A stretch of 20,390 bases of DNA from a virus: IMG/VR virus record IMGVR_UViG_3300001419_000079, positions 1 to 20,390 of that record, one strand, 5' to 3'. Under the pieces are notes generated by a model, which searched no databases, was not told the DNA's origin, and was given only the letters and a program-made list of their open reading frames with translations. Each line of letters begins with the position of its first letter. Position 1 is the stretch's first letter. Shown one piece after another: positions 6,858 through 9,981 of the stretch. A program made the translations under genes and the position numbers.

Positions 6858-6873
6858 AAGGGGAGAACCCCTT
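6858..6873 (-). promoter_or_regulatory. GC-rich hairpin between gp32 and RNase H genes
   Basis: AAGGGG-TTCT-CCCCTT: a six-pair stem with a four-base loop that includes part of the gp32 stop codon and ends 8 bases before the AGGAGG of the RNase H gene. No T run follows, so it is more likely an mRNA 3'-end stabiliser, a partial terminator or a translation-modulating hairpin than a full terminator. Confidence 0.55.
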
Positions 6874-7813
6874 AAACTAGTCCATTAAGCAAGTCGTCTA
6901 AACTGTCTGCTTTTTTAGGTTCAGGGGCTGGTTGAGCTGCTGCAACTGGTGCTGCAACTGGTTCAGGAGCGACTGCCGCTGGTTGAGCTGGAGTAACTTC
7001 TTGAACTGGTGCAACTGCTGGAGCCACTTCAGCCGTCAATGGAGCAGATGGAGCCACTACTTCTTGATCACTGAATGTTACCCAAGCTTTCTTTTTAACC
7101 AATTCATCGTAAGACATAAATGATTCAGGTTTCATAAGATCTGAAAGTTTGTAAGTATTAGATTTGATATCTTCTAATGCTGCTTCAACAGAATCATAAA
7201 TTGAAGTAACTTCATTGATAACTTCAGAAGCATCATAGTTGATAATACCGTTTGCACCACGTTTAGATACTAAACGGAATGAGTTACCAGCTAATGGGTT
7301 GAACATTTCTTTAGGAACTGCACCTAGCGATCTATCTTGTTCAGATGGGTCAACTGCTTGTTGGATTTTATCCTTCATCATACCAGACATTTCAAATAAG
7401 AAGATTTTACCTTCGTTGGCTGGGTTAGCTGGATCTTTAAGAACTTTAATGTTAGCTAGGTATTTAACACCACGACCATACATTTTAGCACCTTCTTTAT
7501 CACCGGCATTCCATAGGTTTTGCCATTCTTCTTGGAAAGGGCAAGGTTGACCAATTGTGCTTGGAGAGAATTCAGAAACGAAACGTTTCTTACCATTTTT
7601 AGTAATTGTCGTATTGATTTTGAACATTTTCTGAATCATACCTTTTTCAGAATCAGGTAAGAAACGAATTAGAGCGGCACCGTTACCCTCTTTGTCCTTT
7701 TGAAGCTTATAGAATCTTTCATCTACAGCGTATTTGTTGGTTGCTTGTGCGAATGGGTCTACTCCCATTGCTTCTTTCATTGCGTCAAAGTTAAATGCGT
7801 TTGCGTCGATCAT
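6872..7813 (-). CDS. 32: Single-stranded DNA-binding protein, T4 gp32 type (313 aa)
   Basis: Coats ssDNA and organises the replisome. The OB-fold core matches gp32: GNGAALIRFLPDSEKG, then KKRFVSEFSPSTIGQPCPFQ, then RGVKYLANIKVLKDPANPANEGKIFLF (T4: [20 protein letters not shown]). T4 gp32 binds zinc through H64, C77, C87 and C90; here only one cysteine (C91) exists in the whole protein, so the zinc site is lost. The basic N-terminal cooperativity motif of T4 (KRKST) is not evident. Residues about 250-300 are a long Ala/Pro/Val-rich linker, and the end DSLDDLLNGLV matches T4's acidic tail DLDDLLNDL, which recruits partner proteins. AAAGGA lies before the ATG. The long leader upstream probably mediates autoregulation. 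Confidence 0.93.
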   Translation of the reverse strand: MIDANAFNFDAMKEAMGVDPFAQATNKYAVDERFYKLQKDKEGNGAALIRFLPDSEKGMIQKMFKINTTITKNGKKRFVSEFSPSTIGQPCPFQEEWQNLWNAGDKEGAKMYGRGVKYLANIKVLKDPANPANEGKIFLFEMSGMMKDKIQQAVDPSEQDRSLGAVPKEMFNPLAGNSFRLVSKRGANGIINYDASEVINEVTSIYDSVEAALEDIKSNTYKLSDLMKPESFMSYDELVKKKAWVTFSDQEVVAPSAPLTAEVAPAVAPVQEVTPAQPAAVAPEPVAAPVAAAQPAPEPKKADSLDDLLNGLV

Positions 7814-7879
7814 ATTATTTCCTTTTAGTCGATTATTTCGAATAGTTCATGTTTAAAGTCACATTGGACTTACCTCTAT

Positions 7880-7905
7880 GCTACAAAACAGTGTAGCGGC
7901 TGTTT
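7880..7905 (-). promoter_or_regulatory. Candidate H-type pseudoknot in the gp32 mRNA leader
   Basis: On the minus strand AAACAG (7905-7900), CC, GCTACA (7897-7892), CTGTTT (7891-7886), TGTAGC (7885-7880): the first and third segments are complementary, and so are the second and fourth. Trimming to ACAG:CTGT and GCTAC:GTAGC leaves sterically reasonable loops of 2, 1 and 3 bases. It lies about 17 bases after the predicted transcript start and 67 before the ATG. T4 gene 32 mRNA has an unrelated-sequence pseudoknot at the same place, used to nucleate gp32 autorepression. Confidence 0.55.
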
Positions 7906-7911
7906 GAGTAC

Positions 7912-7968
7912 CTGTTACTCATACAATAATTATAACAAATAGTTGATTAATAATTGTATGAATAACAG
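7912..7968. repeat. 21-base inverted repeat enclosing the gp32 promoter
   Basis: Arms at 7912-7932 and 7948-7968 are reverse complements at 19 of 21 positions, with a 15-base spacer. The -10 lies in one arm and spacer, and the WTTAA box at the other arm. RNA read through from the clamp gene would form a long hairpin; RNA started at the internal promoter would contain only the 3' arm. It may be an operator, an RNase III site or a cruciform. Confidence 0.7.
7929..7951 (-). promoter_or_regulatory. Promoter of the common window type, for gp32
   Basis: ATTAAT, 11 bases, TATAAT on the minus strand with TTTGT before the -10. Predicted start near 7922, giving a leader of about 110 bases that contains the pseudoknot and an A+T-rich, weakly structured stretch before the ATG. 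Confidence 0.65.
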
Positions 7969-7993
7969 AAGGAAATCTAAATTAAATTTCCTT
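7969..7993. terminator. Hairpin downstream of the clamp gene, weak terminator candidate
   Basis: AAGGAAAT, a 9-base loop, ATTTCCTT: a perfect eight-pair A+T-rich stem 13 bases after the clamp stop codon. On the minus strand no T run follows, so termination strength is doubtful. It directly abuts the 21-base inverted repeat. Confidence 0.4.
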
Positions 7994-8002
7994 ATGTATT
8001 TT

Positions 8003-8010
8003 TATTTATA
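8003..8010 (-). promoter_or_regulatory. Possible T4-type late promoter box upstream of gp32
   Basis: A perfect TATAAATA on the minus strand, covering the clamp stop codon. T4 gene 32 is also transcribed late, so this could add late transcription of gp32. However it overlaps coding sequence in an A+T-rich genome and could be chance. Confidence 0.35.
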
Positions 8011-8767: not shown

Positions 8768-9028
8768 TTAAAGAATGTACTCAGGGAAATCTTTTTTCAA
8801 TCTTTCAACATAATATTTGTAGTACTTTGAACTCTTAAAGTTTGTAATATCCTTGCCTTTTTCTAATTGCTCTAACATGCAATAAAATCTGGCATCTTCA
8901 CGACTATTATATAGTTGATTATCTTTCTTTTTAAATATTACATCAGCTGGAACAAGGTACCCATCACCGACTTCAACCACAGATATTACTGAGTTTCCGT
9001 CGATGATGAACTTTGTTTCAGGTTTCAT
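8768..9028 (-). CDS. Unknown protein (86 aa), translationally coupled to the actin-like ATPase
   Basis: Its ATG overlaps the stop of the actin-like gene (ATGA), and no clear ribosome-binding site of its own is seen, so translation is probably coupled. The N-terminal half reads as beta strands (TKFIIDGNSVISVVEVGDGYLVPADVIF). The C-terminal half is helical and basic (SSKYYKYYVERLKKDFPEYIL). In plasmids a ParM actin is encoded just upstream of its DNA-binding adaptor ParR; the position here is the same, but the sequence does not show an obvious ribbon-helix-helix, so a ParR role is speculation. Alternative: an unrelated replication accessory protein before the clamp gene. Confidence 0.75.
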   Translation of the reverse strand: MKPETKFIIDGNSVISVVEVGDGYLVPADVIFKKKDNQLYNSREDARFYCMLEQLEKGKDITNFKSSKYYKYYVERLKKDFPEYIL

Positions 9029-9981
9029 GCTTTTGTACAGGCGAAGTGAAAAAACCCGATACTGTTATAATACTCGTGTTTAGTTTTTGGTACTCTAATA
9101 AATCCATCATCTGTAGATTTGAAGATAGTAGATCCTCCACCACTTAAGCTAATGAAATCACATTTATCTAGAATTTTACCATACTTTGCTTCAATCAATG
9201 CTAGCAATTCTTTTAGATAAGATTTTTTAACTTCATCTACGTAATCCTTGAACTCGTGTTTCGTTCCACGTAATTTGTAGATTCCAGTATCGATAATTTC
9301 TTTAGCTTCGTGTAAAGTAATACTCCTACCGTGAAGCTCTTTAACTTTTTTGGCAACCAATGTAGCAATTTTCATTACTCCTTCTCGTTCAATACCTTCA
9401 AATAAGTTTGGCGATGTTTTACCATCTGTAACCAAGAACATATCCAACGTATTAAATCCAATATCACAACCTACGAACGAAGTTGCTCCAGTGAATTCTT
9501 GCTGTTGATTAGGGAAGTTATTACCATATTTGTCAATACATAGTTTAGATCCAGCACCCTGAGGTAAGATATAAACTTCATTGAATTCAAATGGTTCACC
9601 ACTTACTTCGAAGCTCATTAAGCCTTCTTTGAAGTGACCTGAATTTTGAATTTGTGCTTTTGATAATCCTGATACAATAATATCAGGTTTAAAACCAATC
9701 AATTTAATTACATGATATAGGAATAATGGTGCGTAATATTCTAGGTTTTTATAATCAGTAATGTCAATCAAGTTTTCTGATGGTAGATGCAAAGCATTCT
9801 CACCAACATAATAACTATGATCTTTGAAATCATAAATCCTAGAATCTTGAACGTATTCATTGCGTTTAGTGATTCCAATAGTTGATGTAAACTTAAATTG
9901 CTTATCAACTTGTCCTTCTGATGTACCTACGGTGACTTTAACGTCGCCAAAGCCGATATCAATACCTAACACCTTTTTCAT
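9025..9981 (-). CDS. Actin-like ATPase of the ParM/Alp family (318 aa)
   Basis: Motifs of the actin/Hsp70 ATPase fold are in order: phosphate 1 GIDIGFGDVKV (D8), phosphate 2 VGCDIGFNTLDMF (D173), and adenosine motif ISLSGGGS (281-284). Length is typical for ParM (about 320). Such proteins polymerise into filaments that move plasmid DNA; in phages relatives may position or segregate replicating DNA or virions. AAAAAGGATAGAT precedes the ATG, and a promoter of the common type lies at 10013-10035. The gene leads an operon with the coupled 86-residue protein and lies just ahead of the clamp gene, suggesting expression with replication genes. No centromere-like iteron array was seen in the upstream gap. 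Confidence 0.88.
   Translation of the reverse strand: MKKVLGIDIGFGDVKVTVGTSEGQVDKQFKFTSTIGITKRNEYVQDSRIYDFKDHSYYVGENALHLPSENLIDITDYKNLEYYAPLFLYHVIKLIGFKPDIIVSGLSKAQIQNSGHFKEGLMSFEVSGEPFEFNEVYILPQGAGSKLCIDKYGNNFPNQQQEFTGATSFVGCDIGFNTLDMFLVTDGKTSPNLFEGIEREGVMKIATLVAKKVKELHGRSITLHEAKEIIDTGIYKLRGTKHEFKDYVDEVKKSYLKELLALIEAKYGKILDKCDFISLSGGGSTIFKSTDDGFIRVPKTKHEYYNSIGFFHFACTKA

Follow-up and report, generated by a model that had tools for sequence, protein, structure and literature searches.

In bacteriophage T4, gp32 nucleates on a pseudoknot in the leader of its own mRNA, spreads over UUAAA units and blocks its own translation (PMC535899, PMC3014915), while the gp32 mRNA itself outlasts all other T4 mRNAs and has an RNase E cleavage site at -71. 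A 2010 review raised the possibility that the gene 32 knot is the sole viral knot used for translational autoregulation, and called for wider study of gp32 autocontrol. The window analysed here is the whole stretch of 20,390 nucleotides of the IMG/VR virus record IMGVR_UViG_3300001419_000079. Its gp32 leader resembles the operators of T4, T2 and RB69 in placing a structure close to the predicted 5' end, with an A+U-rich stretch of UAAA units running from there to the ribosome-binding site. However, the structured module of the window has no sequence similarity to the T4/T2/RB69 knot: it is a hairpin of 3-6 bp with a loop of 5-7 nt, often in tandem, with a weak or absent second helix, and the docking of gp32 on it is putative.

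As the original prediction stated, the gene adjacent to this leader is a gp32 gene (Table 1) without a zinc site, since its product holds a single Cys in 313 aa. Transcription is predicted, from a promoter-like sequence, to start at about 7922. Predicted promoters of the same TTAA-N12-TATAAT class lie in the window at 7950-7929, 8760-8739 and about 8 more sites, all on the minus strand. Occurrences on the coding and the other strand number 29 vs 1 in a 205-kb relative and 14 vs 2 in the genome of Vibrio phage TDDLMA, a strong bias, against 0-4 for a control pattern. The class may be a diverged middle-promoter box, because its spacing is close to that of T4 middle promoters, from the MotA box to the -10. 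A long imperfect inverted repeat, CUGUUAUUCAUACAAUUAUUA ... UAAUUAUUGUAUGAGUAACAG, surrounds the gp32 promoter (7976-7911, minus strand) between the clamp and gp32 genes; relatives carry inverted repeats of other sequence around this promoter, with 12-bp arms in TDDLMA, and when exact arms are scored only 6 of 24 leaders reach significance. An actin-like protein gene (ALP_N / MreB-like_C) lies near the replication genes at 9025-9981 (minus strand), and TDDLMA carries, at a comparable location, a gene annotated 'partition protein'.

Table 1. Coordinates of the gp32 locus within the window
Feature	Position	Strand	Remarks
gp32 ssDNA-binding protein gene	6872..7813	-	313 aa ORF; Pfam PF08804, E 6.5e-26
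Predicted gp32 promoter TTAA-N12-TATAAT	7950-7929	-	12-nt spacing enriched genome-wide on coding strand
Small 5'-terminal hairpin UGAGUA-ACAGG-UACUCA	7905..7921	-	Like GAG/CUC hairpins in the same place in L014 and L016
Originally predicted knot AAACAG-CC-GCUACA-CUGUUU-UGUAGC	7880..7905	-	Sequence present; 3/2000 shuffles; L3 = 0 as drawn
Hairpin GCUACA-CUGUUU-UGUAGC within the predicted knot	7880..7897	-	RNAfold; upstream-hairpin slot of sister phages
Conserved module AAGUC (7871-7867)/GACUU (7860-7856), loop CAAUGU (7866-7861), UAAAC tail	7847..7871	-	
Possible second helix AUGU (7864-7861)/ACAU (7852-7849)	7849..7864	-	L3 = UAA; 3/60 shuffles as good
A+U-rich stretch up to start codon, Shine-Dalgarno-like AAAGGA (about 7825-7820)	7814..7846	-	From sequence

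A base-paired module in the gp32 leaders of the clade

Related gp32 leaders were drawn from Vibrio phages and from IMG/VR, whose contigs are fragments and include some near-duplicates, giving 61 distinct leaders with that of the window. In nearly every gp32 leader of the clade a hairpin is followed by UAAA, in the form AGUC-CNNNGA-GACU-(A/U)UAAAC and its variants; the window's copy, AAGUC-CAAUGU-GACUU-UAAAC, lies 9 nt 3' of the predicted knot. These leaders hold 1-4 copies, many having two and some four, whereas the same detection on shuffled sequences gave 0.03-0.57 per leader, well below the real leaders. The module stands near the predicted 5' end of the gp32 mRNA, and from there A+U-rich UUAAA/UAAA units continue to the ribosome-binding site. 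The original description of this region as A+T-rich with only weak local hairpins overlooked the conserved hairpin, to which, however, RNAfold by itself assigns a probability of only about 0.27 in the window.

Because the detected hairpins had been picked for pairing, 20 leaders were aligned by sequence alone, and the stem pairs in all 20, in three stem types. Among 38 modules with six-nt loops, 97.4% of cells pair and both sides change in 3/4 pairs; stem covariation is 0.354 against 0.078 in shuffled data (0/500 shuffles), and only 26-41% is paired when the stem partner is slid by 1-3 columns as a control. L027, L028 and L072, which form one subclade, share an unchanging GAUUA loop across five copies with five different stems. 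The comparisons show that the module is an RNA selected for its base pairing, and almost every member of the clade has 1-4 tandem copies of it ahead of gp32.

The second helix is another matter, and a knot reading of the conserved module is weak in the window clade. Loop-to-tail pairing exceeds that of permuted partners across all modules (p = 0.0035) but fails to do so in single-copy leaders (p = 0.27), in a permutation that ignores kinship. A covariance model trained with the window and TDDLMA sequences, both of which match by construction because they are in the training set, finds weak matches in the gp32 leaders L110, L114, L115 and L116 (E 0.02-0.6), which are independent of training. 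At the gathering score, Rfam 15 has no match in the window or in 14 gp32 loci, and a relaxed search of window positions 7790-8010 returned only miRNA, sRNA and snoRNA models, far below the cut-off. A likeness to preQ1 riboswitches, to group I introns or to pieces of tRNA is only a conceivable parallel. In the open-access literature searched, neither the motif sequence nor a survey of gp32 leaders was found.

The element beyond gp32

In the 195.8-kb TDDLMA genome the coding strand carries a strict form of the module just once, at gp32, where it also stands in three further phages; two scans of the collection gave matches only in gp32 leaders. A third scan, with a CGCAA(A/T) loop, found 40 sites, spread over 39 contigs; just 9 of the sites precede gp32. 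Most of the remainder sit in intergenic leaders that belong to unrelated phage genes, among them several scaffold genes (PF06810 and PF14265). The exact motif is also present in 23 bacterial contigs, several times upstream of dnaK, against about 2 expected by chance, the chance figures for the collection scans being our own estimates. The notion of a gp32-specific module was overturned by the CGCAA(A/T) scan, the bacterial contigs and the matches in Streptococcus. Among 14 non-gp32 contigs, no Rfam match falls at the element.

Phage capsid scaffold genes are preceded by the same hairpin in L231, L234, L244, L255, L266, L270 and L274, directly after an intrinsic terminator in L234 and L244. It also lies 55-59 nt before an ORF of 46-50 aa (MSRDLLLGLMRKG.../MTKSVMISLLRKG...) in L218, L222, L241-L243, L249, L250 and L253, contigs of marine or aquatic phages. 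Additionally, it is located around 6188-6208 of L230, a 136-kb contig that matches OLE RNA as well, with a large array of phage tRNAs on one side and a ROOL RNA on the other.

In Streptococcus, the element GNCCGNAANGNCNNWAAACTA (GNC-CGNAAN-GNC-NN-WAAACUA) was found in 102 of 118 genomes, with 109 matches against 2 hits of the reversed control; since the sample is one genus, these are not independent events. All 109 have complementary middle letters, 82 GUC/GAC and 27 GAC/GUC by our own table count, and in the 29 loci checked the element lies without exception in the grpE-dnaK spacer, upstream of dnaK. Most streptococci (L307-L335 and others) carry one such hairpin per genome, with U-A/A-U covariation. 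A relaxed Rfam search of one streptococcal locus gave nothing relevant at the element.

The spacer element follows the formula of the commonest gp32-clade modules, GNC-CGNAAN-GNC-NN-(U/A)AAACUA. It differs from them in being mostly single-copy, 59-280 nt before dnaK and without gp32 involvement, and the window's own copy has diverged from it in loop and tail. On a tentative wider reading, a 21-nt element of this formula would be common to streptococcal grpE-dnaK spacers, Gram-positive phage and prophage scaffold leaders, a Paceibacterota dnaK and T4-like gp32 leaders. The comparison ties the gp32 module to an RNA element, without an Rfam entry, that most streptococci carry in their dnaK operon, and makes laboratory streptococci and E. 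coli reporters tractable systems for learning its role.

Possible roles: repression by gp32 or a general mRNA signal

The explanation favoured here, with a probability of roughly 0.48, is that the window module serves gp32 as a docking site in autogenous repression. The gp32 mRNA would start near 7922 with a structured leader, the conserved part of which is the hairpin with UAAAC (7871-7847). Free gp32 would dock on the hairpin together with the UAAAC tail, spread cooperatively over the A+U-rich stretch to the Shine-Dalgarno sequence and repress its own translation, as it does in T4 with a pseudoknot, several weak tandem modules doing the work of one strong knot. By analogy with T4, the operator role is favoured for the multiplication of modules, their nearness to the Shine-Dalgarno sequence and the A+U-rich continuation. 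The excess of modules over shuffles, the stem found in 20/20 aligned leaders, the compensatory stems, the constant GAUUA loop with its five stems, the lone coding-strand copy at gp32, the T4 precedent of a knot with UUAAA units and the covarying knots of cyanophages and Vibrio ackermannviruses also count for it. Against it stand the closely alike modules before scaffold genes and streptococcal dnaK, genes that gp32 cannot control, as well as the poorly backed second helix in the clade and the RNAfold value of the window hairpin.

Since gp32 can have no part in the streptococcal and scaffold cases, a general mRNA-processing or 5'-stabilising element is a serious, if less probable, rival. A hairpin with an A-rich tail would here mark or protect the 5' end of gp32, scaffold and DnaK mRNAs independently of gp32. 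The regularity of the streptococcal element (102/118 genomes, 109/109 complementary stems, 29/29 checked loci between grpE and dnaK) and the copies ahead of PF06810 and PF14265 genes argue for such a role, and the segmental decay of dnaK operons in Bacillus described in the literature and the exceptionally stable T4 gp32 mRNA with its RNase E cut at -71 fit it. Against it, phages of the gp32 clade carry the module in multiple copies, close to the ribosome-binding site and relaxed in their loops, whereas the dnaK copy is single and distant, and no known processing site coincides with the module. Operator and processing or stability roles could coexist. A wider proposal, which we advance tentatively and at somewhat less than even odds, is that the 21-nt GNC-CGNAAN-GNC-NN-WAAACUA element is a general mRNA-processing, stabilising or protein-docking signal that one T4-like clade has multiplied and diversified as a gp32 operator, in the place held by the pseudoknot in other T4-like phages.

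The upstream complement and the knots of other lineages

The original prediction had drawn an H-type pseudoknot upstream of the module. Its two interleaved 6-base complements are present exactly as claimed on the minus strand (AAACAG CC GCTACA CTGTTT TGTAGC, 7905-7880), with the 3' end 67 nt before the gp32 ATG (7813) and the predicted transcript start upstream, so that the candidate does lie near the predicted 5' end. The string is unusual, because two interleaved 6-bp helices within 26 nt or fewer appear in only 3 of 2000 dinucleotide shuffles of the 192-nt leader and at a single place in the 20-kb window. As drawn, with L1 = 2 nt and L3 = 0 nt, the knot is sterically excluded, since a zero-nt L3 must cross the 6-bp S1. 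Only trimmed forms would be feasible, the best, of 4+5 bp, being ACAG-cc-GCUAC-a-CUGU-uuu-GUAGC (ACAG/CUGU and GCUAC/GUAGC), which 2 of 60 shuffles equal in the knot scan. RNAfold forms the plain GCUACA hairpin with a pair probability of 0.97 for five pairs and 0.79 for the sixth.

Homologous leaders show no compensatory changes, an outcome that the original prediction had named as refuting the knot: it is kept in none of the 60 other leaders, and covariation therefore offers it no support. The relatives closest in leader sequence (L014, L016, L020 and L022) have unrelated hairpins in the same slot, at about -87 to -69, and on these few sequences the presence of an upstream hairpin in this slot may be conserved. 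Correspondence with the place of the T4 knot is loose, the T-even knot spanning -71 to -44, the candidate -92 to -67 and the conserved module -58 to about -34.

It is improbable that this knot is the main gp32 operator of the window phage: its rarity by chance, good trimmed form, position near the predicted 5' end and shared slot with the relatives' upstream hairpins are set against the zero-length L3 as drawn, its absence from all other leaders, its lying farther upstream than the T4 knot and the conserved module elsewhere. An incidental complement, in which the loop of a 6-bp hairpin matches upstream bases by accident, is a shade less probable still: the low chance level within a single leader (3/2000) counts against it, and for it that RNAfold forms the plain hairpin, that the knot adds only 3-4 feasible pairs and that one pattern was chosen out of a 20-kb window. 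In the favoured explanation, the hairpin or trimmed knot would be a lineage-specific upstream partner of the conserved module.

The knot scan, which recovers the known T-even knot (a15), also finds clear H-type knots in cyanophage gp32 leaders, namely UGGGGG-a-CCCAGA-a-CCCCCA-cccaaa-UCUGGG in S-B05 and others in L130, L135, L125 and L149, with 0/60 shuffles each. Second stems vary as UGGU/ACCA, UAGU/ACUA, UGUC/GGCA and UGGC/GCCA in S-CRM01/S-H34-like leaders, and as AGGC/GCCU, GGGC/GCCC and GGGG/CCCC in Vibrio ackermannviruses; the covarying knots of cyanophages and of Vibrio ackermannviruses sit at the predicted 5' end of the gp32 mRNA. The cyanophage (S-H34, S-B05) and Vibrio ackermannvirus (K489, D507) knots resemble the window module in lying upstream of gp32 with an A-rich third loop, but in them a second stem of 4-7 bp clearly covaries, a feature that the window module lacks. 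Under the scan filter, no knot appeared in the gp32 leaders of CBA120, LIMEstone1 and 0507-KN2-1; a genome scan found no gp32 relatives in bacterial contigs, and the K489 gp32 was not found in IMG/VR.

The lost zinc site had been tied to a changed operator, and no link is evident: as a cause it was rejected, a Cys-free cyanophage gp32 (L130) lying beside a strong knot. The broader idea, a control circuit that is kept while its parts change, stands better than its coordinates because covarying H-type knots occur in other T4-like lineages. Structured gp32 leaders of different sequence and similar architecture are widespread in T4-like phages, while the structure conserved in the window clade is the other hairpin module at 7871-7847, not 7880-7905. 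The comparison predicts covarying gp32 leader knots in several more lineages, and a clade with tandem hairpin-UAAAC modules in place of them. Leaders of the S-CRM01 type and the window clade have GUC/GAC-like stems and UAAACUC in common, a sequence likeness which suggests that the S-CRM01-type knot and the window-clade module may share a common origin.
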